Shown here one piece after another: positions 11,543-27,497 of a stretch of 37,258 nucleotides of DNA. The stretch spans positions 1-37,258 of the forward strand of contig CAMCWM010000033.1 of NCBI GenBank assembly GCA_945882215.1. Direction: 5' to 3'. This DNA comes from Akkermansia muciniphila (GTDB taxonomy: Bacteria; Verrucomicrobiota; Verrucomicrobiia; Verrucomicrobiales; Verrucomicrobiaceae). The notes beneath the pieces were generated by a model. That model did no database searches, had not been told where the DNA came from, and was given only the letters and a program-made list of their open reading frames with translations. Each line of letters starts with the position of its first letter. Positions within the stretch are counted from its first letter, which is position 1. Both the position numbers and the translations under genes were made by a program.

Positions 11543-11546
11543 TCTT

Positions 11547-13106
11547 ATGCAAGGCAAGGCATTCATCATTTTCCTCGGTGGCATTGGCGCGGTGTACGTC
11601 ATGTTCTCCGTGCTGCTCGCGGGTGGCAACTCCATCGGTGCGCTCGCACAATTCCTCTCCATTGGCTCTTTCATCCTCGCGGTGGTGCAGCCACGTCTCG
11701 CCCTCTACCTCATGGTCTTTTACGCTGGCTACAGCGATCTGCTGAAGCGCATGATGATCTTCGACGGTCACGTCACCATGAACGACGTCATGTGGGTGCG
11801 CGCCCTCTGTCCGTTGACCCTGGCAGGCATCTGTCTTGGAACGCTCGTGCGCTCGCTGCACGACGGCAGCCTGTATCAGCGGCGGAAACTGATCTCGTTG
11901 CTCGTCTGCATCCTCGGCTTCATCATCTCCGCCGTCTCAGCTTTGCGCAGCGGTGGCGGCTTCAATGCGGCCGCCACGCAGCTCGCCGACGGCGCGGCCT
12001 ACATGTTCTTGCTGTTCGTTGTGCCCTGCGTCTTCCGCACACCGGATCAAATCACCGCCTTCATCAAATACTGCCTCATCATCTTCATCCCGGTCGCGCT
12101 CTACGGCCTCAAGCAGCAGATCTTCGGCCTCAGCGACTTTGAAATCGAGTACCTGCGCTCCGGCCTCACCGTTCTCTCGAAACATCTCGACGACGTGCGT
12201 CCGCGTCCCTTCTCCACGCTCGTGGACAGCTCTCCCTTCGGCACTAGCTGCGCCATCTGCGCCTGCCTTGCTCTGATGGTGCGTCGCCATCATCGAGACA
12301 CCGGTTCCAACACGTGGGGAACGATGAGCTTTGTGTTCTTTGGCATCTTTGTCGCCGGTTGCGTCGCCAGCATGACGCGCTTCGCCAACATCAACTGGGC
12401 GTTGCCCCTCTTGCTGCTGCCCGTGCTGCGGAGCGCTCGCGGCACCGCCACGCTGTACGCGTCCGTGGCCGCCTTGTTCTTCACCGCGTGCATCTTTGCG
12501 CAGGATTTGATCAACTGGGTCACCAAGCTCACGCTCTTGGCGCTCGAAAACTTCGGCGGCACCGCCATCGGAGAGCAATTCGCCCGCTTCTGGACCATCT
12601 GCGACCGCCTGGAGGGCATGCACGATCTCGCGCACAACCCGCTCATGTGGACCATGTTCGGCTACGGCACCAAAGGCGCCGCCGACATGCATGAGACGCG
12701 CATGGTCGCCAGTCACGATCTCATCTCGAACTTGCTGCTCGAGATTGGCTGGTTGCCGCTCAGCCTCGTGCTCATCATCGCCGCGCTCGCGCTACACTCC
12801 TTCCATCGCAGTGTTCTCCGCTTGCGCGGTACACCCACCTTCAGCATCTGCCTGTGGATGGTCGGCATCGAGTTCGGCCTGCTCGTGCACAACATCTTCG
12901 CCGGCAACGTCACTTCCACCTTCCCAGTGAACTTCTTCTTCTGGTTCATCGCCGGCGCGTTGAACGCCTGCATCATTCACCAGGAAAGTCTGCGGGTGAA
13001 AAAGCCCCTGCCGCCACAAACCGAGCCGCAGCCGGTGCATTTGCATCATCCGGCCTTCGCTCGCTCTCAAACCGTGCCATTCAACCGCACACTGCCACAT
13101 GGCTGA
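11547..13106 (+). CDS. O-antigen ligase / Wzy-like membrane protein
   Basis: This 519-residue polytopic membrane protein has about 11-12 hydrophobic segments. A large loop near residues 345-395 precedes a SHDLISNLLLEIGWLPL segment, which fits the H-x-x-x-x-x-x-L-x-E-x-G signature of the Wzy_C/WaaL superfamily. It probably ligates or polymerises glycans on the periplasmic side. WaaL, Wzy and exosortase-associated EPS polymerases cannot be separated from the sequence alone. ATG 11547 gives a hydrophobic N-terminus directly; in-frame starts further upstream lie inside the flippase gene. Its last 8 bases overlap the next glycosyltransferase gene. Confidence 0.8.
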   Translation: MQGKAFIIFLGGIGAVYVMFSVLLAGGNSIGALAQFLSIGSFILAVVQPRLALYLMVFYAGYSDLLKRMMIFDGHVTMNDVMWVRALCPLTLAGICLGTLVRSLHDGSLYQRRKLISLLVCILGFIISAVSALRSGGGFNAAATQLADGAAYMFLLFVVPCVFRTPDQITAFIKYCLIIFIPVALYGLKQQIFGLSDFEIEYLRSGLTVLSKHLDDVRPRPFSTLVDSSPFGTSCAICACLALMVRRHHRDTGSNTWGTMSFVFFGIFVAGCVASMTRFANINWALPLLLLPVLRSARGTATLYASVAALFFTACIFAQDLINWVTKLTLLALENFGGTAIGEQFARFWTICDRLEGMHDLAHNPLMWTMFGYGTKGAADMHETRMVASHDLISNLLLEIGWLPLSLVLIIAALALHSFHRSVLRLRGTPTFSICLWMVGIEFGLLVHNIFAGNVTSTFPVNFFFWFIAGALNACIIHQESLRVKKPLPPQTEPQPVHLHHPAFARSQTVPFNRTLPHG

Positions 13107-14205
13107 TTCATCCCAGCTTGTCGTCCTCACTCCCTACGCCCTGCGCGACTGGAGCGACCGGCCACGCCGTTTTCTCGATCCGGCACCCATGCCGTTTCGC
13201 AGCAAAGCGCTCGTCGGTGAGTGGTTTCAAAACGACGAGCAACTGGAACGCGACTACCACCGCCGCCAGCGCGGCGCCACACGCCGCATGGCTGATGCTT
13301 TGCGCCTGATCGTTGGCAACTACGCAATACTGCATCGTGCCCGCATGATCTACTGCCTCGACGGCATGCATTATGCGATCCTGCTCATGCTCGCGCGTGC
13401 TGGAATGTTCCGCACAGAGGGAAAAATCATCCGCCGCGTCGCCTTCCACGACACCGCGTGGCAAAAGCTCGCCGCGAAGCTGCGAGGCGCTCCGGCCGCC
13501 TTCCAAATTGAGTGCATCACGCACGAGCAGTTTGCTTCAGCCTCCAGCCATCTCGGCGCTCATCGCGTCATTTCCCGTCCGTGGAAGATCGACACCGGCT
13601 GGTTCCAACCTGCGCCCGATGCACTGCATCTCCGCGCTCTGCTGCCCGGAAACATCAGCCGTGACGAGTCCATCGTGCCACCGCTGCTTCACAGCGGCAT
13701 TTCCATCACGCGCATTGCTCGTTCCGACTCGTTGCACGCCCGATTCGCAGTCGAAGTTGCCGATCCACGCTTCGAACTCGTCACCAATGCATCTCACCGC
13801 GAGTACCTCGAGCATCTGCACGCCGCGCCCGCTGTTTTGCTGCCCATCGTTTCTTGCGACGGATCCGCCGGCCTTACCGCCGCATTGGAAGCCATCGCTG
13901 CTGGCATTCCTATTCTCGCCAACCGTAGCATGGGCCTCACCGAACTCTTCGCCGAGTGCCAGTATCCTGTGCCGATGCTGCACAACCTCGATCCCGAGGC
14001 CTGGGCGCAGGCTTATCGTCAAATCGAAGAGCAGCATGATTCGCCCGAGTTCATGGAAGCACTCGAAAATTCACGCCGCCTGCTGCTCAAACACCACCGC
14101 ATCCTGCCTGCAGGCGACGATTGGGCGCAGATCTTCGCCGCTGCCTGTGCCGCAGAACCGAGCGCGGCTGTCCACGAACTGCGTGAAGCCTCCGCCCCGG
14201 CATGA
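13099..14205 (+). CDS. Glycosyltransferase-like protein (probable GT4/GT-B)
   Basis: This 368-residue soluble protein shows a GT-B C-terminal pattern: SCDGSAGLTAALEAIAAGIP, then ILANRSMGLTELFAE, where GT4 enzymes place the nucleotide-sugar-binding Glu region. The N-terminal half is not one I recognise and holds a basic patch (HRRQRGATRRMADALR). Sugar donor and acceptor cannot be named. Overlaps of 8 bases with the ligase gene upstream and 4 bases with the next glycosyltransferase place it firmly in the polysaccharide operon. Confidence 0.7.
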   Translation: MADSSQLVVLTPYALRDWSDRPRRFLDPAPMPFRSKALVGEWFQNDEQLERDYHRRQRGATRRMADALRLIVGNYAILHRARMIYCLDGMHYAILLMLARAGMFRTEGKIIRRVAFHDTAWQKLAAKLRGAPAAFQIECITHEQFASASSHLGAHRVISRPWKIDTGWFQPAPDALHLRALLPGNISRDESIVPPLLHSGISITRIARSDSLHARFAVEVADPRFELVTNASHREYLEHLHAAPAVLLPIVSCDGSAGLTAALEAIAAGIPILANRSMGLTELFAECQYPVPMLHNLDPEAWAQAYRQIEEQHDSPEFMEALENSRRLLLKHHRILPAGDDWAQIFAAACAAEPSAAVHELREASAPA

Positions 14206-15353
14206 GACCCTGCCTGCTGCTCATCAGCCATGCCTACGCCGCGCTCGAAAACCGCAAGAAGCTCCAGGCGCTCGCACAGCATTTTGATCTCGTTTGCGTC
14301 ACCTCCACCATCGAGCAACGCGTCATCCTCGGTCGCAAGGCTTCCGACTTCGACAACGATAACGATGCCGGTGCACGCAACTACCAGCTCGTCCGCTGCC
14401 CGCGTCGTGGCTCCAGCGACACCACCTTTCGCTATGCCGGTCTCGCCACCGTCATGCGATCACGTCGTTTCGATGTCGTCCTCGTCGAAAACGAACCTTG
14501 GGCTGTCGTCTGCTGGCAGGCACGCTTTTGGAAGTCTTTGCTTCAACCCAAGGCTCTGTTCGGCGAATTCACCTGGGAAAATGTCGAGCGTCCCGGCTGG
14601 AAGGGTTTCATCCTCGCACGAATCTATCGTTGCATGACTGCCACGACCGATTTCATCATCGCTGGCAATCAAGCCGCCTCCCAGCTTGTGCAGAAGCGTG
14701 GCGCACACTCCAACAACGTGCTCGTCGCCCCGCAGCTCGGCGTCGATCTCGCCAATCATCAGCCCGCGTCGCCCTCAGAACGCGATGAACTGCGCAAAGC
14801 CCAAGGATTGCCTTCAGACACCTTCATCATTGGTTACTGCGGCCGTTTGACCGAGGAAAAAGGCATTCGCGAGCTGTTTCAGGCCTGTGACGACTTGGGA
14901 AGCGTCCATCTCGCCCTTCTCGGCTCCGGCGCACTCGAACCGTGGCACAAGGAGCAGCAGCAAACACGTCCCTGGCTTCATCTGCTGCCGCCACGGCCGC
15001 ATTTCGAGATTCCGGCCTTCCTGCGCTGTCTCGATGTCTTTGTGCTCGCCAGCAAACCTGTGCGCACCATGCAGCTTTGCTGGGAAGAGCAGTTCGGCCA
15101 TGTCTTGATCGAAGCGATGGCCTGTGGCGTCACCACGCTCGGTTCCAGCAGCGGCGCCATCCCCGAAGTCATTGGCCATGACGATGCCATTTTTCCTCAT
15201 GGTGATTCCAAAACACTCGCTGACCGCATCCGGCGCGTGATGAACGACTCCACACTCGCTCAAAGCCAGCTCGAACGCACCCGCATGTTCTACACCCACG
15301 ACGCCGTCGCCGCGCTGTGGGCCGGATTCATCCAGCAAAAGCTCGCCGCATGA
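14202..15353 (+). CDS. Glycosyltransferase family 4 protein
   Basis: This 383-residue protein is a GT-B retaining glycosyltransferase of the GT4 type. The N-terminal acceptor domain includes FDVVLVENEPWAVVCW and FGEFTWENVERPGWKG. The C-terminal domain has IIGYCGRLTEEKGIRELF and the GT4 signature EEQFGHVLIEAMACGVTTLG followed by SSSGAIPEVIG. It probably adds a sugar to a lipid-linked glycan at the cytoplasmic face; the donor is unknown. The start overlaps the previous stop (ATGA), and the methyltransferase start overlaps its own stop. Confidence 0.9.
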   Translation: MRPCLLLISHAYAALENRKKLQALAQHFDLVCVTSTIEQRVILGRKASDFDNDNDAGARNYQLVRCPRRGSSDTTFRYAGLATVMRSRRFDVVLVENEPWAVVCWQARFWKSLLQPKALFGEFTWENVERPGWKGFILARIYRCMTATTDFIIAGNQAASQLVQKRGAHSNNVLVAPQLGVDLANHQPASPSERDELRKAQGLPSDTFIIGYCGRLTEEKGIRELFQACDDLGSVHLALLGSGALEPWHKEQQQTRPWLHLLPPRPHFEIPAFLRCLDVFVLASKPVRTMQLCWEEQFGHVLIEAMACGVTTLGSSSGAIPEVIGHDDAIFPHGDSKTLADRIRRVMNDSTLAQSQLERTRMFYTHDAVAALWAGFIQQKLAA

Positions 15354-16084
15354 GCACTTACCGAGACATCCTCTATCGCGACTATTCCGCCTCCTTTGGT
15401 GGGCAGAAAGCTCTCGATGTCAGCGTGCAGCACGCGCAATACGACGCCACTTACGATCAACTGCCGCCGAAGCGGGATGCTATCATCGCCGATCTCGGCT
15501 GCGGCAAAGGCGAATGGATCGGGTGGATGGCCTCCAAAGGTTTCTCCAAGCTCACCGGCGTCGATCTCTCGTCTTCCGATCTCGCCATTGCCCGGCAAAA
15601 CGATTCTTCCCGCACCTGGGTGCAAGAAAACGTCATCACCTTCCTCGAATCGCAAGATGCCGCGTTCGATCTGTTGCACGCGAAGGATATAATCGAGCAC
15701 TTCACCAAGGACGAGTTCATCCGCTTTCTCACCGCTGCACGCAACGCGCTCAAACCCGGCGGCGAATTATGGCTGCTCACCTTCAACGCGCAAAGCCCAC
15801 TCTCGTCCGCCATCCGTTACGGCGACTTCACCCACGAGATCGGCTTCACTCCCGCCAGCATGGCTCAGTGCCTCCGCGCCTGCGGCTTCAAGCACATCTC
15901 CGTTCAAGGCCGCCACTACTGCTCCAACTCCACCAGCGGCCAGATCCGCCGCATCCTTGGTCACATGGTCTTCAAGATGGCCGGCTTGCTCCTGAAAATT
16001 CGTCACGGCGAAGCAGCGAAGGAACGCTTCATCGACATGCACTGCACGCAGCCCGATCTGTTTACGATGGCCTGCAAAGTTTGA
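15350..16084 (+). CDS. SAM-dependent methyltransferase (class I)
   Basis: This 244-residue protein carries the SAM-binding motif IIADLGCGKGEWIGWM (residues about 45-60), an acidic loop after GVDLSSSDLAIA, and a LLHAKDIIEHF motif resembling the conserved class I post-II region, followed by ALKPGGELWLLTFN. The fold suggests methylation of a sugar or lipid-linked intermediate, perhaps end-capping a glycan chain. ATG 15350 overlaps the GT4 stop by 4 bases and gives MSTYRDILYRDYSASF, a natural start. Its 3' end overlaps the convergent GT9 gene by 23 bases. Confidence 0.85.
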   Translation: MSTYRDILYRDYSASFGGQKALDVSVQHAQYDATYDQLPPKRDAIIADLGCGKGEWIGWMASKGFSKLTGVDLSSSDLAIARQNDSSRTWVQENVITFLESQDAAFDLLHAKDIIEHFTKDEFIRFLTAARNALKPGGELWLLTFNAQSPLSSAIRYGDFTHEIGFTPASMAQCLRACGFKHISVQGRHYCSNSTSGQIRRILGHMVFKMAGLLLKIRHGEAAKERFIDMHCTQPDLFTMACKV

Positions 16085-17042
16085 TCACCCGCTCATGCAC
16101 AGCATCGACGCTCCAGCGATTCAAGCACGCCATCGGTGCTTGCACGTTCAGGCAGCGATTCACCGGCTTCGTGGCGCTGTCACACGGCTGGCAGCTCAAT
16201 CTCGGCTCACGCAGCAAATCAAACCTCTCCCGATGCCACGCCGGATCCCAGCGCGGCGAGGACGGTCCGATCAAAATGACTCCTGGAGTGCCACAAGCCG
16301 ACGCGATGTGCATCGGTCCCGAATTGTTGCCCAAAAACAGCTTCGCTCCAGCGATCACACGCACCAGATCGTCGAGGTTGCTCGTTTTTACGCATTGCAC
16401 CGCTTCACGCAAACCCGTCTCATCACCTTGCACGATCCAACGCACCGCATGCGTCTCCGCAAGCCGGTTCGCCAGCTCAACGAAGTTTCTCATCGGCCAG
16501 CGTTGATACTCGCGGCTCGCTCCCGCGTGAATCACAATCGCACCCGATTCATCGCGACCAAACGCGCTCAAATCCGGTGCAGGCATGACCTCCGGCAGTT
16601 CAAACTTCAATCCGGCAGTGAGCCAGTTGTGCGCAGCGACGGAAAAGTTTTCATTCACTTCCACGCGATAGGGAATCAAGAAGTTCAGCCTCACATGCGG
16701 CGTCTGCGGCCCCACGCACAGCTTCGCGCCGCTCACACGCGCCAGCAGATGCGCCACGTTGCCCTGATCATCGCCGAGCAAACAGGCATCCGGCTTCAAA
16801 GCCCGCAATTTAGCGGCCATTTGCGCCAGCAGCCAAGGCTGACGCCATGCACCATTGAACTTCGCCGTTTCAAACACGCGCAGTTCCACCTGTGGGCAGC
16901 AGACTTCATACAATCGTGCGGCCACCGGACTCGTGAGCACCACGATGCGCCAGTCGGGATGCGCTGCCACGAGCGACTGCACGACAGGCAGGAACACGAC
17001 GTTGTCGCCGAGTTGGTTCACTTTGAAGACGAGCAGCGTCAT
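16062..17042 (-). CDS. Glycosyltransferase family 9 (heptosyltransferase-like)
   Basis: This 326-residue protein matches the ADP-heptose:LPS heptosyltransferase family (GT9). It begins MTLLVFKVNQLGDNVVFLPV, the typical Rossmann start. Further motifs are AIVIHAGASREYQRWPMRNF (the family HxGAxxxxKxWP region), FLGNNSGPMHIASACGTPGV and ILIGPSSPRWDPAWH, ending in a Cys-rich stretch (LSCQPCDSATKPVNRCLN). It is the only minus-strand gene in this cluster, yet its likely substrate is ADP-heptose, made partly by the hldA and gmhA products. ATG 17042 was chosen over upstream in-frame starts because the conserved N-terminus begins there. It lies 49 bases from the divergent second methyltransferase gene. 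Confidence 0.9.
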   Translation of the reverse strand: MTLLVFKVNQLGDNVVFLPVVQSLVAAHPDWRIVVLTSPVAARLYEVCCPQVELRVFETAKFNGAWRQPWLLAQMAAKLRALKPDACLLGDDQGNVAHLLARVSGAKLCVGPQTPHVRLNFLIPYRVEVNENFSVAAHNWLTAGLKFELPEVMPAPDLSAFGRDESGAIVIHAGASREYQRWPMRNFVELANRLAETHAVRWIVQGDETGLREAVQCVKTSNLDDLVRVIAGAKLFLGNNSGPMHIASACGTPGVILIGPSSPRWDPAWHRERFDLLREPRLSCQPCDSATKPVNRCLNVQAPMACLNRWSVDAVHERVIKLCRPS

Positions 17043-17091
17043 GCTGGCGAACCCTACCATCACGCGTGACAGGCACGCAACGACTTGTGTC

Positions 17092-17883
17092 ATGAGCGCG
17101 GCTCCTAAATGCCCCGCCTGTGACACAACCGCCAAGGCCGAGATCGGCCAGGCAGGTGTCTGCCAGCTCTGGCGCTGTGCCTGCGGACTCGTCTTTGCCG
17201 ATCGTGCGACTTGGTGTGATCCATATTCGATCCGCGATTACTACGATCCGGCCAACCAGCCTGTGGAAAGCTATCCTCTGCGGGTCACTGCCACCGAGCG
17301 CGACCGCATCGCCAGTGTGCGGCGCTTCATTCAGACCGGCCGCTTGCTCGATTTCGGCGGCGGCATCGGCAAGACCGCGCTTGCCGCCTATGAGGCCGGT
17401 TTTTCCGCTCTCGTGCTCGAAGACAGCCACAAGGCCGTGAGCGATGGGAAAGCGCATCATCCCGAGATCGAGTGGCTCGAAGGCAAAAAGATCCCCGACA
17501 GCATCGCCGATGGCAGTCTCGATGTGATCACCCTCTTTCATGTGCTGGAGCACCTTCCTGATCCGCGTGTCGTGCTGGCACAAATCCATCGCAAGCTCCG
17601 TCCCGGCGGCCTGCTGGTTATTGAAGTGCCGAACTGGGGCAGTCAAATGCGTCGTCTGCGCGGCCTGCGCTGGCAATTCGTGCTCGATCATCATGTGAAT
17701 CACTTCACCTCGGCCAGTTTGACGTCGTTGGTGGAAAAATCAGGCTTCCAAAGCTGTGCAGTCGAGTTTCGCCGCACCTTCGCCATCAATGAAAGCAGGC
17801 CTTGGAAAGAGCCGCTGAAGAAACTGCTGTGTCTGCTCGGTTTCGGCGACATTCTCCGCTGCGCCTTCCGCAAAACCGCATGA
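17092..17883 (+). CDS. SAM methyltransferase with N-terminal zinc-ribbon-like Cys cluster
   Basis: This 263-residue protein opens with Cys pairs (CPAC at residues 7-10 and CAC at 29-31) that resemble a small zinc ribbon. A class I methyltransferase core follows: RLLDFGGGIGKTALAAYEAG, SLDVITLFHVLEHLPDPR and KLRPGGLLVIEVPNWGSQ. This layout is common in polysaccharide-cluster C- or O-methyltransferases. The substrate is probably a sugar or nucleotide sugar, but this is inference. ATG 17092 starts just before the Cys cluster and avoids overlap with the divergent GT9 gene. The stop overlaps the exosortase start by 4 bases, so it is coupled to the exosortase unit. Confidence 0.85.
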   Translation: MSAAPKCPACDTTAKAEIGQAGVCQLWRCACGLVFADRATWCDPYSIRDYYDPANQPVESYPLRVTATERDRIASVRRFIQTGRLLDFGGGIGKTALAAYEAGFSALVLEDSHKAVSDGKAHHPEIEWLEGKKIPDSIADGSLDVITLFHVLEHLPDPRVVLAQIHRKLRPGGLLVIEVPNWGSQMRRLRGLRWQFVLDHHVNHFTSASLTSLVEKSGFQSCAVEFRRTFAINESRPWKEPLKKLLCLLGFGDILRCAFRKTA

Positions 17884-18845
17884 AACGCAAGCACGCCATT
17901 TCCTGGACCATGCTGGCCACCAGCCTCGTGCTGCTGATGGCCGTGCAGCCGTATGCGGCTGGCTACGGTCACTTTCGCCGCACGATGTTCGCCGAGCTGC
18001 TCATGCAGTGGAAGGATGCCACATGGCAGCACGGCGCGTTGCTGCCGTTCATTGTCGGTTACTTGCTCTGGCGGCGACGAAATGAGGTCGCACAGCTTCC
18101 AGAATCATCGAGCCGTTGGGGTTTCGTCCTCATTGTCCTGGCTCTGTTCCTCTACTTCGCCGGATTCCGCGCCAACAATTTCTACTGCGGCTATCTCGCG
18201 ATCATGGCGCTGCTCGCGGGCGCATCGCTGTGGCTGGAAGGCGGGCAACGCAGCCGTGTCAGGCTGTTTGCGTGGTTGATGCTCGGCTTTCTCTGGCCGC
18301 TGCCGTTTCTGGAGGAGAACATCGGCTATCAGATGAGGCTCATCATGGTGCAAACGACAGGCTTCGTGCTGAATGCCGTCGGTGTCGATGCGCTCGTATC
18401 CGGCACCGCGTTGCAATCCATGCCAAACCTCGAATTCGGCAGGAAGGCGGGCGAGTTGTTCAGCGTGGGCATCGCCGCGCCGTGTTCCGGCATGCGCTCG
18501 CTGTTCGCGCTGCTCGTCGTCGGGGCTCTGTTCAGTTACTTCCGCCAGCGCGTGATGTGGCGCAGGTTCGCGCTGTTCAGCACGATCCTGCCCATCGCCA
18601 TCGTGGCGAACATGGTACGCATCCTCGTCCTGATCTTCGCGGCGATGATCTTCGGCCAGAACTGGGCCATCGGCGATGTGGAGAAGGAAGTCTCTGTCTT
18701 CCACGAACTCACCGGCATCGTTGTCTTCCTCGTGGCGCTAATGCTGCTCCAATCCGCCTCCTGGCTGCTGAACCGTCTGTGCAGCGGACTCGACTTCAAA
18801 CGCTCACGCACCATTTCGCGTCAGGTCGTCTCCTCCGTGTCATGA
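17880..18845 (+). CDS. xrt: Exosortase
   Basis: This 321-residue polytopic membrane protein belongs to the exosortase/archaeosortase family, which processes the PEP-CTERM tail of exported proteins at the inner membrane. All three signature residues are visible: Cys202 in APCSGMRSLFAL, Arg247 in IVANMVRILVL, and His275 in VFHELTGIVVF. The N-terminal part has several hydrophobic segments plus WQHGALLPFIVGYLLWRRR, where many exosortases carry a conserved His-Gly/Leu motif. It has no long C-terminal extension, because the EpsI-like part is a separate gene overlapping it by 4 bases. The adjacent PEP-CTERM gene supplies a plausible substrate. The exact exosortase subtype was not assigned. Confidence 0.95.
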   Translation: MKRKHAISWTMLATSLVLLMAVQPYAAGYGHFRRTMFAELLMQWKDATWQHGALLPFIVGYLLWRRRNEVAQLPESSSRWGFVLIVLALFLYFAGFRANNFYCGYLAIMALLAGASLWLEGGQRSRVRLFAWLMLGFLWPLPFLEENIGYQMRLIMVQTTGFVLNAVGVDALVSGTALQSMPNLEFGRKAGELFSVGIAAPCSGMRSLFALLVVGALFSYFRQRVMWRRFALFSTILPIAIVANMVRILVLIFAAMIFGQNWAIGDVEKEVSVFHELTGIVVFLVALMLLQSASWLLNRLCSGLDFKRSRTISRQVVSSVS

Positions 18846-19555
18846 TCGCCCGTGCTTTCATTCTTTTCGCGCTCTGCGGCATGACGATGCTGCTGTGCCA
18901 GTTCTCACCACAGGCCAAAGGTGGCGAAGAAGCGGGCGTGCTGGCCGAGTTACCGATGGTGGCGGGCAGTTTCGTGGGTGAATCCGAGCCGCCAAGCGAC
19001 AAAGAACGCGGGTTGCTTCCCGCCGACACGATCATCGTGAAACGTGCCTATCGCACACCAGGTCGCTCGGTGGAAAATCGCGATCACGCGCACGCCTCGC
19101 TCGTCATCGCCGGGAATGACAGTCGCAGCATTCATCGCCCCGAGGTGTGCCTCGACGGCCAGGGCTGGACGGTCACCGATTCACGCGTGCGTGAGGTCAA
19201 ACTGATCTCTGGCGAAGTTTTGCGCGTGCGGGATCTCGCCATTGAGCGCGAAGTGCTGCTCGATGACGGCACCAAGCTGCCGCTGCGTGCGCACTATGTT
19301 TACTGGTTCGTCGGCGTCGATGTCAGCACGCCGAGCAACTTTGAGCGGCAGATGTTGAGCCTGCGCGACAGCGTGCTGCACAACGTGAACCACCGCTGGG
19401 CCTACCCGTCTGTGATGGCCCGCGTCACGGCCAATCTCACGCCGCAGCAAAGTGGTGAGCGTCGTCGCAATGACGAGGAAACCGTCGAAATGATCCTCTC
19501 CCTCATCCGCAGCCTTGCGCCGCGCCTGCAGAAGGATTTGATGCCACACTCATGA
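18842..19555 (+). CDS. Exosortase-associated EpsI-like protein
   Basis: This 237-residue protein has an N-terminal hydrophobic segment (residues about 2-22) and a periplasmic domain with the EpsI/DUF3485-like motif RPEVCLDGQGW at residues 99-109. EpsI proteins accompany exosortases, sometimes fused to them, in exopolysaccharide loci; their biochemical role is not settled. The 4-base overlaps with the exosortase gene and with larE suggest translational coupling through all three. Assignment rests on the motif, size and position. Confidence 0.87.
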   Translation: MIARAFILFALCGMTMLLCQFSPQAKGGEEAGVLAELPMVAGSFVGESEPPSDKERGLLPADTIIVKRAYRTPGRSVENRDHAHASLVIAGNDSRSIHRPEVCLDGQGWTVTDSRVREVKLISGEVLRVRDLAIEREVLLDDGTKLPLRAHYVYWFVGVDVSTPSNFERQMLSLRDSVLHNVNHRWAYPSVMARVTANLTPQQSGERRRNDEETVEMILSLIRSLAPRLQKDLMPHS

Positions 19556-20352
19556 TTTCCAAGCTCCTCGCTCATCTCAAGCCTCTTGGCCGTGTCGCCG
19601 TCGCCTATTCCGGCGGTGTGGACAGTACGCTGGTGCTGAAGGTCGCGCTCGATGCGCTTGGGAGCGAAAACGTCGTCGCACTTCTCGCCGTCTCACCGAG
19701 TTTGCCGAAGAGTGAGAAAGACGCGGCCAGCGTACTCGCGAACCAGCTCGGTGCCCGGCTTGAACTGCTGTCCACCGAGGAAACGAACGATCCTGCGTAT
19801 CAAGCGAACGAGCCGAACCGCTGCTACTTCTGCAAAGATCACGTCTATCGCGCCTTGCGGCAGTTTGCGGAACAAAACGGCATCGCCCATGTGCTCGATG
19901 GCATGAATGCCGAGGACACGCTCGATGTGCGCCCTGGACGCGCCGCCGCGCGTGAGCTGAAAATCCTCAGCCCGCTGCACGATCTCGGTTTCAGCAAGAA
20001 TGACGTGCGCGAAGCCGCCAAAGCCCTCGGTTTGCCGAACTGGGACAAGCCCGCAGCCGCCTGTCTCGCCTCGCGCGTGCCCTACGGCACGAGTGTGACA
20101 CCGAAACTGCTCTCGCAGATCGAGCGTGCTGAGGCCGCGCTGTTTGATCTCGGCTTCCGTGAGCTGCGCGTGCGCCATCACGGCGATGTTGCCCGACTGG
20201 AAGTGCCCGAGAGCGATTTGCCGCTTGCCTTGCAGCAACGCATCGAAATCACCGCCGCGCTGCGTGCCGCCGGTTACACCTACATCACGCTCGATCTCGC
20301 CGGTTTGCGCTCCGGCAGCATGAACGAAGTGCTTCAAGCCCGCGCTGTATGA
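19552..20352 (+). CDS. larE: ATP-dependent sacrificial sulfur transferase LarE
   Basis: This 266-residue PP-loop protein matches LarE, which activates the pyridinium dicarboxylate precursor with ATP and inserts sulfur during synthesis of the nickel-pincer nucleotide cofactor first found in lactate racemase. Visible features are the PP-loop AVAYSGGVDST (SGGVDS at 20-25), NRCYFCKDHVYRAL (Cys91 and Cys94), DGMNAEDTLDVRPGRAAA, and NWDKPAAACLASRVPYGT. Cys171 in this last motif aligns in context with the sacrificial Cys of Lactiplantibacillus LarE. It overlaps the EpsI-like gene and larB by 4 bases each. Finding it inside an exosortase operon is unusual to me. Confidence 0.93.
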   Translation: MISKLLAHLKPLGRVAVAYSGGVDSTLVLKVALDALGSENVVALLAVSPSLPKSEKDAASVLANQLGARLELLSTEETNDPAYQANEPNRCYFCKDHVYRALRQFAEQNGIAHVLDGMNAEDTLDVRPGRAAARELKILSPLHDLGFSKNDVREAAKALGLPNWDKPAAACLASRVPYGTSVTPKLLSQIERAEAALFDLGFRELRVRHHGDVARLEVPESDLPLALQQRIEITAALRAAGYTYITLDLAGLRSGSMNEVLQARAV

Positions 20353-21110
20353 ACGAATCCAAGCTCCGCGATCTGCTTTCTCAAGTCAGCGAAGGCAAGC
20401 TACCGCCTGATCAGGCGCTGGAGCGTCTGCGTACGCTGCCCTTTGCCGAAGCCGGCCAGGTGCTTGCCGACACACATCGCGTGATTCGCCAGGGCTTCCC
20501 CGAAGCCGTTTATGCTGAAGGCAAGACGCTCACGCAAACCTCGGACGCCCTCACCGCACTCGTCGCCGCGCATGGCTGCGCTCTCGCAACACGCGTGACA
20601 GCCGGGATGGCCGCCCTGTTGCTACAACGCTTTCCCACCGGCAGTTATGACGGTGTTTCACGGCTGTATCGCATCGGCCAGATGGATGGCTCATTCAAAT
20701 CGGCTCCCGTGGCCGTTGTGTGCGCTGGAACGTCGGATTTGCCCGTCGCCGAGGAAACCGCGCAGACGCTCGAATTTGCCGGAGCCAAGGTGAACCGCAT
20801 CACCGACGTCGGCGTGGCCGGGTTGCACCGCCTGTTGGCCCGGCTCGATGATTTGCGTGCCGCCAGCATCGTCATCGTCATCGCCGGCATGGAAGGCGCG
20901 TTGCCCAGCGTGCTCGGCGGCCTTGTCGCCGCACCGGTGATCGCCGTGCCGACCAGCGTTGGCTACGGCGCGAACCTGAACGGCCTCGCCGCCCTGCTCA
21001 GCATGCTGAACTCCTGCGCCAGCGGCCTCACAGTGGTGAACATCGACAACGGTTTCGGGGCTGCGGTGGCTGCGGTACGGATCCTGAACATTCTGACCAG
21101 ACCAGCCTGA
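20349..21110 (+). CDS. larB: LarB, pyridinium-3,5-biscarboxylate mononucleotide synthase
   Basis: This 253-residue protein is LarB, which carboxylates and hydrolyses nicotinic acid adenine dinucleotide at the start of nickel-pincer cofactor synthesis. The N-terminal helical part (LRDLLSQVSEGKLPPDQALE) is followed by a PurE-like domain with VAVVCAGTSDLPVAEETAQT, VGVAGLHRLLARL and VIVIAGMEGALPSVLGGLVA. VPTSVGYGANLNGLAALLSM leads to Cys223 (NSCASGLTVVNIDNGFGA), in the position expected for the catalytic Cys. LarC, needed for nickel insertion, is not in this window, nor is any larA-type enzyme. It is the last gene of the coupled unit; a weak hairpin overlaps its stop. Confidence 0.94.
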   Translation: MNESKLRDLLSQVSEGKLPPDQALERLRTLPFAEAGQVLADTHRVIRQGFPEAVYAEGKTLTQTSDALTALVAAHGCALATRVTAGMAALLLQRFPTGSYDGVSRLYRIGQMDGSFKSAPVAVVCAGTSDLPVAEETAQTLEFAGAKVNRITDVGVAGLHRLLARLDDLRAASIVIVIAGMEGALPSVLGGLVAAPVIAVPTSVGYGANLNGLAALLSMLNSCASGLTVVNIDNGFGAAVAAVRILNILTRPA

Positions 21111-21192
21111 AAGGCTGATAATCTACATATTGCCATAATATTTACAAATTAAAGCTCGATTTAGAGCGGCCGCATCATAGATTTTATATACT
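21103..21192 (+). promoter_or_regulatory. AT-rich leader of the PEP-CTERM gene, with a weak hairpin at the larB stop
   Basis: CAGCCT-GAA-AGGCTG (21103-21117) forms a 6-bp hairpin across the larB stop and may be a weak terminator. The next 76 bases are only about 30% GC, against high-GC flanks, and contain ATAATATTTACAAATTAAAG, a GCTC/GAGC inverted repeat (21154-21157 and 21164-21167) and TTTTATATACT directly before the ATG. This is probably a promoter and 5' leader. I could not fit a clean sigma-70 or sigma-54 consensus, and there is no Shine-Dalgarno motif. Confidence 0.5.
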
Positions 21193-21990
21193 ATGAAGCT
21201 CTCCAGACTCTTTTTGATGATCTTTACCGCCCTGTCTGCCACAGCCAGCGCCGCCACCATTTCGGTGACCGGTGTGGACGACAATGGTTCTGGGGGCGTG
21301 TACGAGATCGACGGCCAGAATTACTGGTGGATGTGTGTGGAGCCCGGCCCGCCCTCAGTGCAGGTGCCGACCTTGGGACAGACGATCACTGCGGACTCGC
21401 AGTCGTTCCTGGATGGCTGGGACCAGCAAAACACCGAACGCCTGGGCATTTACACTGGCGATCCCAGCCTCTATACCACAGCCATCCCGCGCCAGGTGGC
21501 GGTGATGGAGTACGTCCTCGACACCTACCTGCCTTGGAACACGTTGGCGGGACCGTCCGGCCGCTTCATCGAGCAGAGCAGCGACTCCTCGCTCTACGCG
21601 AACGACGATGCCTTCTACAATTCGTTCTTCGCCGTGCAGAACTTCCTGTCCGAGACCTACGGCAAGACAGTGAAGGAGGACTTCACCGACATGAGCGATT
21701 TTGTGGACTACTACGATGGCAACGCCACCCCGGCGGGCATCGCACGCTCCGGCCTCTTTCAGAACATCCTCACGGATGTGGAGGGCAAAGGAAACGCCTT
21801 CTTCGACACTTACACTGCCACCCACGGCTACTACATCGCCAACACCCTGTTTCCCTCGGCTGACCCGGACAACTGGCAGGACGCCCTCATCATCGCCTCC
21901 TTCGCTCCGGTGCCGGAGCCGGGCAGTGCGCTGCTGATCGCCTGCTGCGGCGTGGCCTGGATGGTGCGCCGTCGGCGTCGGCTGGCGTGA
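21193..21990 (+). CDS. PEP-CTERM exported protein, possible thioester-type domain
   Basis: This 265-residue surface protein has a signal peptide (MKLSRLFLMIFTALSATASA) and a full PEP-CTERM tail: VPEPGSALLIACCGVAWMV followed by a basic run (RRRRR). It is therefore a likely substrate of the exosortase encoded about 2.3 kb upstream. The ectodomain is rich in Asp, Tyr and Ser. Its only Cys before the tail is Cys48 in NYWWMCVEPGPP; a helix-like IPRQVAVMEYVLDTYLP follows with Gln101. The Cys then [x]Q-x-A arrangement resembles the thioester (TED/TQXA) domains of Gram-positive adhesins, but the similarity is short and unproven. A terminator-like hairpin follows the gene. Confidence 0.9.
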   Translation: MKLSRLFLMIFTALSATASAATISVTGVDDNGSGGVYEIDGQNYWWMCVEPGPPSVQVPTLGQTITADSQSFLDGWDQQNTERLGIYTGDPSLYTTAIPRQVAVMEYVLDTYLPWNTLAGPSGRFIEQSSDSSLYANDDAFYNSFFAVQNFLSETYGKTVKEDFTDMSDFVDYYDGNATPAGIARSGLFQNILTDVEGKGNAFFDTYTATHGYYIANTLFPSADPDNWQDALIIASFAPVPEPGSALLIACCGVAWMVRRRRRLA

Positions 21991-22000
21991 TTGCTGAGTA

Positions 22001-22055
22001 GTCCGCGAGTCCGCTCGCGGTTCATTTTTTAAGCCACCGCGACAGAGTCGCGGAC
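22001..22055. repeat. Pair of related palindromes in inverted orientation
   Basis: Two short hairpins lie between the PEP-CTERM and CapK-like genes: CCGCGAG/CTCGCGG (22003-22020) and CCGCGAC/GTCGCGG (22037-22053). The reverse complement of 22037-22055 closely matches 22001-22020 (both begin GTCCGCGA and end TCGCGG), so they are two copies of one element facing each other, as in REP/BIME arrangements. The second hairpin ends 5 bases before the next start codon. Confidence 0.6.
22003..22032 (+). terminator. Probable terminator of the PEP-CTERM gene
   Basis: A 7-bp stem CCGCGAG/CTCGCGG with a TCCG loop is followed by TTCATTTTTT. It starts 12 bases after the stop codon. It coincides with the first copy of the palindrome pair, so the repeat appears to double as a terminator. 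Confidence 0.65.
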
Positions 22056-22058
22056 GAC

Positions 22059-23510
22059 ATGTCTCTCGAAGACGCCCTCTATCCGCTGCTCAAGCTCTAC
22101 GAGGCAGCGCCACAGCCGGTCAAATCGCTGGTAGGCAGGGCGTATCGGGCCATTCCGGCGTCGTTGCGCTATGGCTCGGCCTATACGCGATTTCAAAATG
22201 AAGCGAGGGAAGTGGAATCGTGGGATGCAGAGACGATCCGGCGGTATCAGATCGCGGCGCTGCGGGATTCATTGATCGCGGCCTCCAAAGCGCCGTTCTA
22301 TGCGGAACGCTTCGCAGCCTGTGGCGTCGATCCGACGAAGTTCGAGTCGTTGGAGCAACTCGCGGACTATCCGCTGCTGACGAAGCAGGATCTGCTGCTG
22401 CATCGCGAGCAGATGGTGAACCCGGAGTTCACAGCGAAACAACGCCTCTACATCACCACGGGCGGATCGAGCGGCGTGCCGGTGGGGTTTTATCTGCACA
22501 AGGGCGTGAGCCGGCCCAAGGAGCAGGCCTACCTCGAAGCGCAGTGGTCGCGGCGCGGGTATCGTGTTGGAGATCGTGTGGCGGTGATTCGCGGTGGTGT
22601 CACGTCGAGCAAGGCGCAGGGAGACATCCGCTATTACGATGCGACGCGCAACTGGCTCATTCTGTCCTCGTATCACCTCACGCCGGAGCGTCTGCCGGAG
22701 TATGTGGCCGCGTTGAACCGATTTCGACCGCAACACCTGCATGCGTATCCCAGCGCGGCGCTGATGCTGGCACGCGGACTGGAGCAGGCGGGCTTGAAGC
22801 TCGATTTCCCGCTCACCTCGCTGCTCTGCGGCTCGGAAAAGCTCACGGCGGAGTCGCAGCAGCATCTGGAGCAGTTCTTCGGAACCCGCGTCTGCCACTG
22901 GTATGGCCACAGCGAGCGCGTGGTGCTCGCCGCGCAGGGCCGCACCTCGAATCACCTGCATTTCTGGCCGACCTACGGCTTCGTCGAGTTCGGTGAGGCG
23001 GATGCGGACGGTCATCGCGAAATCATCGGCACCTCGTTTCACAATCACGTCATGCCGCTGATTCGGTATCGCACGGGAGATCTGGCGAAAATGACGAATG
23101 ACGAGCCGAGCGAAGCGAGACAGACAGCCGAAGGCTGCCCCGAGGGTGAAACGCAGCGTAATCAATGCGGAATGACGAATGCCGTGGTTTCCGAGGTCGT
23201 GGGCCGCGATTACGAGTTCCTCATCAGCGCCACCGGCCGCCGCATCTCGCTCACCGCGATCAACATGCACGACAACATCTTCGACGGCCTCCTGGCCGTG
23301 CAGTTCTTCCAGGAACGCCCCGGCGAGGTGGAATGCCGCTTTCAACCCGGTCCGCAGTGGCAAAGCACCCGCGCGGAGGCGATGCGGGCGGGCTTGCTGA
23401 AGAAGCTGGGCGATGATTTCACGCTCACGCTGCGTGAGGTGAAGGAAGTGGAGAAGACGAGCGCGGGGAAGCACAAGTGGCTGATCAGTGCTCTAAAATC
23501 AACAATTTGA
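22059..23510 (+). CDS. CapK/phenylacetate-CoA ligase-like adenylate-forming protein
   Basis: This 483-residue protein belongs to the CapK-like branch of the adenylate-forming superfamily, common in exopolysaccharide loci. Motifs seen are RLYITTGGSSGVPVGFYLHK (the ATP-binding P-loop region), HLHAYPSAALMLARGLE, LLCGSEKLTAESQQHLEQFF, CHWYGHSERVVLAAQG and IRYRTGDLAKM. It may activate or transfer an acyl group for polysaccharide modification; the substrate is unknown. Residues about 344-371 come from an in-frame repeat insertion between the RYRTGDLA motif and VVSEVVGRDYEFL, two segments that are normally close together. Whether the enzyme tolerates this is not visible, but the frame stays open on both sides. 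ATG 22059 is preceded by a hairpin and no Shine-Dalgarno motif. Confidence 0.85.
   Translation: MSLEDALYPLLKLYEAAPQPVKSLVGRAYRAIPASLRYGSAYTRFQNEAREVESWDAETIRRYQIAALRDSLIAASKAPFYAERFAACGVDPTKFESLEQLADYPLLTKQDLLLHREQMVNPEFTAKQRLYITTGGSSGVPVGFYLHKGVSRPKEQAYLEAQWSRRGYRVGDRVAVIRGGVTSSKAQGDIRYYDATRNWLILSSYHLTPERLPEYVAALNRFRPQHLHAYPSAALMLARGLEQAGLKLDFPLTSLLCGSEKLTAESQQHLEQFFGTRVCHWYGHSERVVLAAQGRTSNHLHFWPTYGFVEFGEADADGHREIIGTSFHNHVMPLIRYRTGDLAKMTNDEPSEARQTAEGCPEGETQRNQCGMTNAVVSEVVGRDYEFLISATGRRISLTAINMHDNIFDGLLAVQFFQERPGEVECRFQPGPQWQSTRAEAMRAGLLKKLGDDFTLTLREVKEVEKTSAGKHKWLISALKSTI
23090..23181. repeat. 81-base in-frame insertion bounded by an 11-base direct repeat
   Basis: AATGACGAATG occurs at 23090-23100 and again at 23171-23181, offset by exactly 81 bases (27 codons). 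The interval contains a CAGCC-GAA-GGCTG hairpin (23125-23137) and reads like intergenic repeat DNA: its translation is polar and low-complexity (NDEPSEARQTAEGCPEGETQ). Protein motifs typical of the CapK family resume on both sides. This looks like a small mobile or REP-like element sitting inside a gene without breaking the frame. Confidence 0.7.
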
Positions 23511-23520
23511 AGGCTTATCA

Positions 23521-25665
23521 ATGAAACAACTCGCCCAATACCAAGACGGACGCCTGGAACTCCAGGACGTTCCTGCGACGGTGCCGCCACCGGGAGGAAT
23601 TCTGGTGCGGACGACGTGCTCGGTGATCTCGCCAGGAACGGAACGGATGAAGGTGGAGCAGGCGCGGATGTCGCTGCTGCAAAAGGCGAAGGCGCGGCCG
23701 GATCAAGTCAAAAAAGTGATCGACACGGCGAAGACGCTAGGCTGGAAGGCGGCGCTGGAGAAGGTGCGCAACCGGCTCGAATCGCCAACCCCACTGGGTT
23801 ACTCGGCGGCGGGCGTGGTGGTAGCGGTGGATGAGTTGAACTCGCGTTTTCGTGTGGGAGATCGCGTGGCCTGTGGCGGCGCGGAGTGCGCGTTTCATGC
23901 GGAGATGATCGCCGTGCCGGATCTGCTGGCTGCACCCGTTCCCGAAGGCGTGGAGGACTGGCAGGCGGCTTACACGACGTTGGCGTCGATCTCAATGCAG
24001 GCGGTGAGGCAAGCCGAGGTGCGGCTGGGAGATCGTGTGCTGGTGATGGGCCAGGGTCTCGTCGGCCTGCTGGCAACGAGTTTGCTGAAAGCCTCCGGCG
24101 CTCGTGTGCTGGCGGTGGATTTCGTTTCGTCACGACTGCAAACCGCGCTGGCGATGGGTGCGGAGCGTGTGGTGAATCCGAGTGAGACGAAGGTCGAGGA
24201 CATGGTGCGTGAATGGACCAACGGCCACGGCGTGGATGCGGTGATCATCTGTGTGGGCGGCAAGTCCAGCGGTCCGGCGGATCAGGCCATCGCGTGCCTG
24301 CGGGATCGCGGCGTGATGGTGATCACGGGCATTTACGATGCCGAATTGTCCTGGAAGACGGCCTACATGAAGGACATCCAGGTGCGCTACTCGCGCAGCT
24401 ACGGCCCCGGCCGCTACGATCCGCAATACGAGTGGGGCGGGAAGGATTACCCCATCGGTTATGTGCGCTGGACGGAGAACCGGAATTTTGAGGCATGTCT
24501 TGAGCTGATGCGCACGGGGCAGCTTGATTTGAAGCCTGTGACGACGCGGCGGGTGGGGTGTGGGGATGTGTTGGACGTTTACGACAAGCTGGAGAGCGAG
24601 CTTGGCGTGGTGATTGAGTATTGTAGTCCCGGCTTCAGCCGGTCTGGGGAGGTGGAGCCTACGGCGGAATCACAGATCCCAGACCGCCTAAAGGCGGAAC
24701 TAAAGTGCGGCGTTGGGGTGCTCGATGTCATCGGCGCAGGAAACTTCGCGCGCACGATGCTGCTGCCGCATCTGAAAGGAAAAATCACGCTCGGCACCAT
24801 CGTCAACGCCACGGGTCTGAGCGCTCGTCATGTGAAGGAGAAGTTCAGCTTTTCGGCAGCGGAAACAGACGCGGCGAAGGTTTTCGGGGGCAACGGCAAC
24901 GCGGTGATGATCGGCACGCGGCATCATCTGCATGCGCCGCTGGTGCTGAAGGCGCTGCAAAGCGGGAAACACACGTTTGTAGAGAAGCCGTTGTGCCTGA
25001 CACGGGAGGAACTGGCGCAGATGGATGAGGCGATGAGCTCCAGCAGCGGCAGCGTGATGGTGGGATTCAATCGCCGCTTTGCTCCGGCGACGGTGGCGAT
25101 GATGCAGACACTGCAAAACATCCCAGGGCCGAAGACGCTGGCCTTCCATGTGAACGCAGGCGTACTGGCACCGGATCACTGGTATGCGAACGTCGAAGAA
25201 AGCGGCGGGCGTGTGCTGGGCGAAGCCTGTCACTTTTTTGATTTCGCCTGTCATGTGCTCGGCAGGCCGGTGAAGGTGACGGCGCAGACGGTCGGTCGTC
25301 CGGCAGTGCCGGATTCGGTGACGGCTCAAATTGAGTTCGCGGATGGATCGTCGGCGCAGATCGTTTATTCGGCGGAAGGCGACTCGGCGTTCCCGAAGGA
25401 AACGTTTCGGGTGTTCGCGAACGGCTCTGTCGTGGAGTGCGAGAACTTCATGCGGCTCTCCATCTTCCAAAACCGCAAACAGACGGTGAAGAAATTCGCC
25501 TCAAAGGGCCATGCGGAAGAGATGGCGGCCTGGCTGGCCTTTTTGAAAGGCGGATTGAAAGGCGGATCACCGCATCCGCTGCCGTATGAGCAGGCACGGC
25601 AGAGCATGCGGCTGACGTTTGCGGTGCTGGAGTCGATCCGCGAGGGACGAGGAATCGCGTTGTGA
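23521..25665 (+). CDS. Two-domain oxidoreductase: zinc-type MDR alcohol dehydrogenase fused to Gfo/Idh/MocA
   Basis: This 714-residue fusion has an N-terminal medium-chain dehydrogenase-like part (residues about 1-365) with TTCSVISPGTERMKVEQARM, a PLGYSAAGVVV region, and a Rossmann segment VLVMGQGLVGLLATSLLKAS. The C-terminal Gfo/Idh/MocA domain (about 398-714) has VLDVIGAGNFARTMLLPHL, GKHTFVEKPLCLTREEL (with the catalytic-type EKP motif) and GFNRRFAP. Such bi-domain proteins occur in exopolysaccharide clusters next to heparinase-like genes and probably oxidise or epimerise nucleotide sugars; the substrate is unknown. The linker, residues about 368-394, is encoded by a paired palindromic repeat. 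The stop overlaps the heparinase start by one base (TGATG). Confidence 0.88.
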   Translation: MKQLAQYQDGRLELQDVPATVPPPGGILVRTTCSVISPGTERMKVEQARMSLLQKAKARPDQVKKVIDTAKTLGWKAALEKVRNRLESPTPLGYSAAGVVVAVDELNSRFRVGDRVACGGAECAFHAEMIAVPDLLAAPVPEGVEDWQAAYTTLASISMQAVRQAEVRLGDRVLVMGQGLVGLLATSLLKASGARVLAVDFVSSRLQTALAMGAERVVNPSETKVEDMVREWTNGHGVDAVIICVGGKSSGPADQAIACLRDRGVMVITGIYDAELSWKTAYMKDIQVRYSRSYGPGRYDPQYEWGGKDYPIGYVRWTENRNFEACLELMRTGQLDLKPVTTRRVGCGDVLDVYDKLESELGVVIEYCSPGFSRSGEVEPTAESQIPDRLKAELKCGVGVLDVIGAGNFARTMLLPHLKGKITLGTIVNATGLSARHVKEKFSFSAAETDAAKVFGGNGNAVMIGTRHHLHAPLVLKALQSGKHTFVEKPLCLTREELAQMDEAMSSSSGSVMVGFNRRFAPATVAMMQTLQNIPGPKTLAFHVNAGVLAPDHWYANVEESGGRVLGEACHFFDFACHVLGRPVKVTAQTVGRPAVPDSVTAQIEFADGSSAQIVYSAEGDSAFPKETFRVFANGSVVECENFMRLSIFQNRKQTVKKFASKGHAEEMAAWLAFLKGGLKGGSPHPLPYEQARQSMRLTFAVLESIREGRGIAL
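24624..24702. repeat. Paired inverted 24-base stem-loop element in the interdomain linker
   Basis: Units at 24624-24647 and 24679-24702 are inverted copies, 20 of 24 positions identical. Each carries an internal 5-bp hairpin: CCGGC-TTCA-GCCGG (24629-24642) and CCGCC-TAAA-GGCGG (24684-24697). Two of the four differences are compensatory and keep the stem paired. The element is in frame and encodes the junction between the two enzyme domains. It resembles bacterial REP/BIME units. Confidence 0.75.
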
Positions 25666-27497
25666 TGAAGATCGCCTGGTATGCCCAAAGACTGCGCGCG
25701 ATGAGCGCGGGCGAGATCGTGCATCGCGTGAGGGAGCGTCTTGGCAGGCGCAATGAGGCCGCGAAGCTCAAACGCATCTCACGCCGCCCGTGGGACGGCA
25801 CGTTTGCCGATTTTCCGAAGCTGCCATGGCGACAGCAGGTGCCGCCGGACTTGCGCAAGCAACTGGCTGCCGATGCGGAGAAATTGGTGCGCGGCGAGTG
25901 GGAGCTGTTTGGCTGGAAAAGCGTCGAGGTCGGCGCGCCGCCGTGCTGGCATCGCGATGCGACGCTCGGCGTGGTGATTGACCCTGACACGCCGTCGCGA
26001 AAGCTCGATCACCGTCATCTGCCGCATGATGCCGACGCACGCGCGATTTGGGAGATCAACCGCTGGTCCGAAATGACGCGCATGGCGATGCACAGCGCGC
26101 TCAATGGCGATGTGCATGCCATCCGCGTCTCGCAGCTCTGGCTCGAAGACTGGTGCGACCGCAACCCGCCCGGCCACGGCATCAACTGGACGAGTCCGCT
26201 CGAAGCGGGGCTGCGTCTGATGAACTTCTGCTGGTTCGATGCGCTCGTACGCGGCTGCAACGACCCTGAGCTGGCCCGCCGACAGGATGAACTGACCGCT
26301 CGCATTGTTCCTGTTCATGCCTGGTGGGTGTGGCAGCGCAAATCCTTCGGCTCCTCGGCGAACAACCATCTCATTGGCGAACTGAGCGCTCTGGTGATGG
26401 CGATCACGCGCTGGCCAGCGCTGGTGCGCATGATCTGCACGGCGCAACGTGTGTGGAAGCTGCTGGAGCACGAGATTTTGCACCAATTCTCCGCAGATGG
26501 CGGCAACAAGGAGCAGGCGTTGCATTATCACCTCTTTGCCTGGGAAATGAGCTGGCATGCGGGACTGGCGGCGGATGGTTTGAAAGGCGAGGTGCTGGAA
26601 CGGCTGACGAAAGCGGCGCAGTTCTTCGTGGATGTCGTCGAAGCACCCGGATGCTGGGATTTTGGCGATTCGGATGACGCGCAGGTGCTGCCACTCGCGG
26701 TGAAACGCTCCAACGTGGCCGCTGAGTTTCGCGGCTGGTTGCTGGGCCGGGCGGACGGTTCAGCGTTGCGCTTCTGGCTTGGGGAGCCGCCGAAAGGCGT
26801 GAAAGCCTCCATGCGCAGCAAGTGGCTGGTGCAGCCGGAAAGCGGGCAGGCGGTCTGGCGCGATGCGCGCTGGACGGTGCGTGCCGATGCCTCGCCGCTT
26901 GGTCTTGGCAGCATGGCGGCGCACGGGCACCTCGACGCGCTGCATGTGTCGCTCTGGTTTGAGCAGCATGCGCTGGTGATTGATCCGGGAACGGGCGCTT
27001 ATTACGGCAACACGGCGTTGCGTTCTCGCCTCGCCTCCTGGGAGGCGCACAACGGCCCTGTGCCTGTTTCTGGCCGCCAGACGCCGGTGCGTATTGGCCC
27101 CTTTCTGTGGATGAAACATCACGCGGTGCCGGAGTTGGAAGTCAGTAACGACATCTGCGTCATGAGCTTCGCCTGCGAAGGACAACGCGTGCAGCGTGCC
27201 GTGCATGCCGCGCAGGGTTATGTGGAGGTTTGCGATGAGGTCGGCACTGAAACGCCTCATGTGGTGATGTGGCAACTCGCTCCCGGCTGGCGCATCGAGC
27301 AGGAGCGTAAGAACGGCTTTGTATGCCATCATGCCGAGTCGATTCCGGTGCATGCCACGCTGAATGGCGACGACATCAAAGAATGGGAGATTGTGGAGCG
27401 CGAGGCATCACCGCATTTTCGTGAACTGCTGTCATCGCAGGCCGTGAAGATCACATTCAAAGGCACGCTGACGACGATCTGGCGCAAAGCCGGGTGA
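25665..27497 (+). CDS. Heparinase II/III-like protein
   Basis: This 610-residue protein resembles heparinase II/III and alginate-lyase-type enzymes. An alpha-helical toroid-like N-terminal part includes WTSPLEAGLRLMNFCWFDAL, KSFGSSANNHLIGELSAL and SADGGNKEQALHYHLF. The beta-sandwich C-terminal part has AAHGHLDALHVSLWFEQHAL, IDPGTGAYYGNTALRSRLAS and WEAHNGPVPV. Such proteins sit in exopolysaccharide clusters and may act as periplasmic polysaccharide lyases or modifiers. No clear signal peptide is visible, which is common for this cluster-associated subgroup. ATG 25665 was chosen over GTG 25662; it overlaps the previous stop by one base. A strong bidirectional terminator follows. Confidence 0.87.
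   Translation: MKIAWYAQRLRAMSAGEIVHRVRERLGRRNEAAKLKRISRRPWDGTFADFPKLPWRQQVPPDLRKQLAADAEKLVRGEWELFGWKSVEVGAPPCWHRDATLGVVIDPDTPSRKLDHRHLPHDADARAIWEINRWSEMTRMAMHSALNGDVHAIRVSQLWLEDWCDRNPPGHGINWTSPLEAGLRLMNFCWFDALVRGCNDPELARRQDELTARIVPVHAWWVWQRKSFGSSANNHLIGELSALVMAITRWPALVRMICTAQRVWKLLEHEILHQFSADGGNKEQALHYHLFAWEMSWHAGLAADGLKGEVLERLTKAAQFFVDVVEAPGCWDFGDSDDAQVLPLAVKRSNVAAEFRGWLLGRADGSALRFWLGEPPKGVKASMRSKWLVQPESGQAVWRDARWTVRADASPLGLGSMAAHGHLDALHVSLWFEQHALVIDPGTGAYYGNTALRSRLASWEAHNGPVPVSGRQTPVRIGPFLWMKHHAVPELEVSNDICVMSFACEGQRVQRAVHAAQGYVEVCDEVGTETPHVVMWQLAPGWRIEQERKNGFVCHHAESIPVHATLNGDDIKEWEIVEREASPHFRELLSSQAVKITFKGTLTTIWRKAG

Follow-up and report, generated by a model that had tools for sequence, protein, structure and literature searches.

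A palindromic element inside a dehydrogenase gene

A gene encoding a two-domain dehydrogenase carries a pair of inverted palindromic units within its coding sequence, which raises the question of what these units are, how they came to lie there and what they have become in the protein. We analyzed the gene within the window, that is, the whole stretch of 37,258 nt of DNA under study (Table 1). The reading frame is free of stop codons throughout, and Pfam assigns ADH_zinc_N to residues 181-299 and GFO_IDH_MocA to residues 403-516, plus a C-terminal domain. The pair encodes residues 368-394, in frame and between the two domains, in agreement with the sequence-only reading of this locus, which had placed it at the junction of an alcohol-dehydrogenase-like and a Gfo/Idh/MocA domain. 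Near the C terminus of the enzyme, an in-frame short tandem duplication (AAAGGCGGATTGAAAGGCGGATC) is present at 25549-25571 and is missing in the relatives G008, G015 and G032.

The pair is the sole inverted repeat in the region 24500-24850, with arms of 25 nt (24624-24648 and 24678-24702) that are 84% complementary and 29 nt apart. As described in the sequence-only reading, its two 24-mers, TAGTCCCGGCTTCAGCCGGTCTGG and TAGTTCCGCCTTTAGGCGGTCTGG, are identical at 20 of 24 positions and form a 5-bp stem each. The palindrome score of the linker, 13, exceeds that of all 100 dinucleotide shuffles and of all 36 other windows of equal size in the dehydrogenase gene (maximum 10 in both cases). The window contains two matches to a pattern describing the unit, compared with 0.10 expected, a number that no shuffle reached; given that this pattern was derived from both copies, the count mainly shows that no third copy of the unit is present in the window. 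The shuffles, together with the genomic copies reported below, rule out a chance inverted repeat.

Table 1. Features of the dehydrogenase gene and its neighbor, elements found in the linker slot of relatives, and host genes of in-frame insertions. G, genomes; L, loci; G000, own genome.
Feature	Position	Strand	Where found	Remarks
ADH-like then Gfo/Idh/MocA-like dehydrogenase gene, 714 aa	23521..25665	+	window	open frame, Pfam
Interdomain linker, residues 368-402	24622..24726	+	window	hypervariable sequence, near-constant length
Left REP unit	24623..24648	+	window	GTAG tag 24623-24626, hairpin CCGGC-TTCA-GCCGG
Right REP unit, inverted	24678..24702	-	window	hairpin CCGCC-TTTA-GGCGG
Second in-frame element, other dispersed repeat type	~23104..23184 (boundaries approximate)	+	window	in AMP-binding gene 22059-23510, upstream
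Genes with further in-frame REP-A			G000	DUF7133/cytochrome c protein (two insertions); DUF7133/HEAT protein; haem-type protein; MnmE (mnmE)
Linker slot, REP-A			G000, G008, G032, about eight others, distant L087	
Linker slot, AATGCGG type			G004, G027	
Linker slot, GGAGTGC type			G011, G029	
Linker slot, CAGTGCT type			G016	
Linker slot, CGAATGACG type			L073	
Linker slot, GCGGATT type			L076	
Linker slot, GGAGCAAGGAGCA type			L074, L078	
Linker slot, CAGGCATTTTGCCTG type			L084	
RAYT host, bi-domain ADH-Gfo proteins			G015, G009	two proteins
RAYT host, CarB			6 genomes	oligomerisation-domain loop
RAYT host, adenosine deaminase-like protein			3 genomes	
RAYT host, LeuRS				editing region; ~219 residues vs 12 in T. 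thermophilus
RAYT host, HsdR				
RAYT with NUDIX protein			L179	set apart: insert perhaps merely an N-terminal extension

A dispersed family of GTAG-type REP units

The sequence-only reading would have been refuted by the absence of other copies in the genome. We found instead that the family, which we named REP-A, is dispersed in many copies over about 20 places of its own genome (6.2 Mb in 391 contigs), copy numbers in this genome being lower bounds. Among 45 hairpins read at the loci fetched, about 33, at those ~20 places, bear a TAG-type tag, typically as GTATTG-TAGT or GTTCCG-TAGT, and many are paired in inverted orientation; most of the remainder bear a GGAG tag. The GTATTG that precedes the left unit (24618-24623) recurs at other copies, and the tag of the right unit, decayed to TTAG in the window, is intact (CTAC on the plus strand) in G008 and G032. 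REP-A copies were also found in 24 of the 56 relatives searched, nearly all of the same genus, in a group that named contigs place in the Verrucomicrobiaceae, around Prosthecobacter. The family thus combines what defines GTAG-type REPs, namely a short palindrome with a stem of 5-13 bp (5 bp here) and a GTAG tag at one end, many dispersed copies and frequent inverted dimers. Because of this tag, the short hairpin, the inverted pairing and the many dispersed copies in genome and genus, the element is, as judged from its sequence, a REP/BIME-like (REPIN-like) inverted pair of GTAG-type REP units. No REP-A hairpin was found near 25 RAYT loci in six incomplete genomes, and the cognate transposase was not identified.

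Two of the four differences between the units are the two sides of a single stem pair (G-C to C-G), from which the sequence-only reading had inferred selection on the structure. The compensatory change is real, but stems of the forms CCGGC..GCCGG and CCGCC..GGCGG are both common among the genomic copies, so that this compensatory change probably descends from the family and does not prove that selection has acted here.

Four other genes of the same genome (L004, L010, L059 and L132) carry REP-A insertions that keep the frame, at least five in total. GTAG REPs in frame have been described before: intragenic dimers code for 20-30 residues, they are most numerous in Opitutus terrae, a verrucomicrobium, the recB genes of two Xanthomonas were hit at about the same site, and neutrality of REPs in flexible linkers was already suggested (PMC3733652). 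These REPs share with REP-A the GTAG tag, the short stem, inverted dimers, dispersal and in-frame coding, and O. terrae is a closer precedent than the Rickettsia palindromic elements with which the locus had been compared. The latter analogy nevertheless holds, as these are also palindromic repeats in frame within ORFs (as cited in PMC3733652), differing in repeat family and phylum.

In an AlphaFold2 model, residues 369-392 have a pLDDT below 50, while most of both domains exceeds 70. The best reading is that the pair would act as a disordered, flexible tether between the domains, whose sequence hardly matters; this disorder is a prediction only.

The linker slot is occupied by unrelated repeats in relatives

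We compared the linker in two partly overlapping sets of relatives, genomes on the one hand and loci with named contigs on the other. The dehydrogenase has a mean column identity of ~75% across 33 relatives; its conservation extends to Tyr367 and resumes at about Val403, with hardly any in between. In the 42 linkers without a RAYT, the length is 99-135 nt both with and without a recognisable element, and none of the relatives was found to have a shorter linker devoid of an element. The same linker at equal length in distant homologues had been named as evidence that would refute a REP origin; equal length is indeed what we observe, yet the content is unrelated. Since the length is constant with or without an element, the elements replace sequence rather than add to it, and the lack of any shorter empty site among the relatives likewise does not fit simple insertion.

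Various types of element occupy this slot (Table 1), in addition to a RAYT with its flanking repeats, and they are interleaved in a tree built from the flanking domains. Five of the types, REP-A, GGAGTGC, CAGTGCT, the RAYT-flanking type and CGAATGACG, were confirmed as dispersed genomic repeats, the check having covered these five only. In 13 of the 42 linkers, palindromicity is higher than in any shuffle, and another two fall short by a single shuffle. From these sequences, we conclude that one linker has been occupied repeatedly by unrelated palindromic repeats at near-constant length, by a replacement step that remains unexplained. The idea of a REP/BIME-like element turned protein linker is thereby supported as to the dispersed family and the in-frame, predicted-disordered tether, and is too narrow in that different elements, twice including a whole RAYT, reoccupy the slot. 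The earlier survey of GTAG REPs recorded single cases (PMC3733652), whereas here a single linker is traced through a family and holds many unrelated types as well as whole RAYTs at constant length; the literature searched yielded no other linker occupied repeatedly by many element types.

A transposase gene in frame within the linker and within other enzymes

In two relatives, G015 (UBA11399, L098) and G009 (UBA2429, L100), the slot spans ~840 nt and consists of REP hairpins, a complete RAYT and again REP hairpins, all in frame, giving fused proteins of 955 and 956 aa. The insert matches Pfam Y1_Tnp above the cut-off; it scores 69 bits with the NCBIfam RAYT model, under the cut-off of 80, and a free-standing RAYT also falls under that cut-off. 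The HUH (MPNHVH) and Tyr (YI..NP) motifs are intact. A 109-nt hairpin element lies on both sides of the RAYT and has many more copies in both genomes, where the other RAYTs found are at most 48% identical to the one in the slot. An HUH and Tyr RAYT flanked by REPs, as well as inverted REP pairs, are shared with the REPIN/RAYT systems (TnpA-REP, REPtrons; PMC6006769, PMC8049555). The AlphaFold2 model of the 955-aa fusion is of moderate quality (mean pLDDT 63), and we draw little from it.

Between G015 and G000, the two enzyme domains have a dN/dS of ~0.04 and ~0.07, which indicates that the flanking domains of G015 remain under purifying selection. The RAYTs of G015 and G009 have a dN/dS of ~0.07 at a dS of 1.48. 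They are sisters in the RAYT tree, their host genes are not, and whether the RAYT arrived once or twice is not settled. That the RAYT linker was recently transferred from one to the other is unsupported, in view of this dS and of G015 flanks that are closer to G000 than to G009.

Across 387 genomes of the order, 17 hold a RAYT close to the slot RAYT (E <=1e-58), of which 14 lie within frames of 508-1460 aa and three stand alone or nearly so. Besides the bi-domain proteins, the hosts are CarB, LeuRS, HsdR, adenosine deaminase-like and NUDIX proteins from several families of the order (L154-L179; Table 1). The CarB, LeuRS and HsdR frames exceed the NCBIfam cut-offs with the RAYT between the matched stretches, the CarB loop counting ~16 residues in E. 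coli and ~247 in L171. In the RAYT tree, the RAYTs of CarB, of the deaminase and of the bi-domain proteins each cluster by host, and the in-frame RAYTs overall do not form one clade. Their dN/dS is ~0.07-0.11 where dS could be computed. In CarB (L168-L171), the dS of the RAYT is 2.2-3.6 versus 0.5-0.8 for the host flanks, which could reflect either turnover in the slot or codon constraint on CarB. From sequence alone, we infer that the fused frames may be translated as one protein; any mobility is likewise inferred.

Described RAYTs are separate genes, whereas here a branch is embedded within host enzymes, in frame and lacking a stop codon of its own. Unusually long RAYT proteins were discarded in a previous survey as fusions or annotation errors (PMC6006769). 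In the literature searched, which did not include most subscription papers, we came across no description of in-frame RAYTs.

Inteins with homing endonucleases carry a DNA-cutting domain in frame within housekeeping enzymes. In-frame RAYTs likewise bring such a domain, but no intein splicing domain was revealed when the fused proteins were scanned with Pfam and NCBIfam, and the inserts lie in variable loops or linkers, so that the insert would stay in the protein. We hypothesize, with about an even chance of being right, that a RAYT branch of the Verrucomicrobiales occupies an intein-like niche without splicing. Having lost its own stop, it would be translated as an extra domain in tolerant loops of CarB, LeuRS, HsdR, adenosine deaminase-like and ADH-Gfo proteins, be expressed with the host gene, and be shielded, since any loss other than an exact in-frame one would do harm; such slots would also gather small palindromic repeats.

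Origin and maintenance of the element

We propose, with good confidence, that a GTAG-type REP pair entered the dehydrogenase linker in frame and is now translated as a disordered tether. Family membership, in-frame position, reoccupation of the slot and purifying selection on its flanks rest on sequence data; the tether's disorder is predicted. In this model, the repeats would have spread by RAYT-type single-strand transposition, which has not been observed, and a linker that may need only ~33-40 flexible in-frame residues would tolerate them. A length constraint would hold the linker near 105 nt, arrivals displacing older sequence via deletion or recombination, and the REP element would have no special enzymatic role. 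By the same logic, the RAYTs in CarB, LeuRS, HsdR and adenosine deaminase-like proteins may endure as inserts without stop codons wherever their host accommodates an extra segment.

One observation is not predicted by this proposal. Among ten REP-A linkers, the left arm (24622-24646, with its counterparts in L061-L068, L087 and L099) is 91% conserved, compared with 54% for the spacer and 57% for neutral flanking sites, which counts against a purely neutral linker; gene conversion, re-insertion and selection all remain open as causes. The hairpin might accordingly be selected at the site as DNA or RNA, for instance for translation pausing between the domains or stabilisation of the message, with the amino acids incidental, and the two arms of the pair can indeed form one long stem. 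The right arm, however, falls to 69%, indicating that the long stem is not maintained, many relatives have an unrelated hairpin or none recognisable, and the compensatory stem pair came from the repeat family; we consider such selection improbable. A REP-A linker could also be ancestral in the genus and decay by point mutation, the diversity being drift with few true replacements. Consistent with this, the distant L087 has REP-A followed by similar sequence, decayed REP-A versions exist (G030, for example), and linker length is equal everywhere. The other types are nonetheless clean dispersed repeats of their own genomes that point mutation cannot derive from REP-A, and G015 carries a RAYT although its nearest relatives (G000, G008 and G032) carry REP-A. 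Drift from an ancestral REP-A is thus contradicted for the other types and very unlikely as a general account, while the ancestry of REP-A itself is still open. We also considered whether the L087 linker region had been converted locally by a G000-like donor and rejected this, as flank identity is not raised.

As far as titles show, all fused RAYTs come from metagenome-assembled genomes, and they might be assembly errors or dead genes. Against this, fourteen open frames occur in several families and group by host gene in the RAYT tree, the CarB, LeuRS and HsdR portions pass the curated cut-offs when scored across the insert, and the RAYTs show the low dN/dS given above. We regard artifact or decay as hardly tenable.

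An interdomain linker may then serve as a long-lived docking site and home for mobile DNA, and a slot of this kind explains a segment of hypervariable sequence and constant length. A slot filled by different repeats, or by an entire transposase, offers a natural series for testing what a linker requires. In-frame RAYTs also suggest how single-copy RAYTs persist for long, within genes that the cell cannot easily delete.

Neighboring sequence

The in-frame element of the upstream AMP-binding gene (Table 1) has ~49 matches in the genome and adds ~27 residues that are absent or shorter in relatives. Judged mostly by eye, the region ~10187-27497 resembles an exopolysaccharide locus, with putative genes for a flippase, glycosyltransferases, an exosortase-like protein, a protein with a PEP-CTERM-like tail and a heparinase-like protein.
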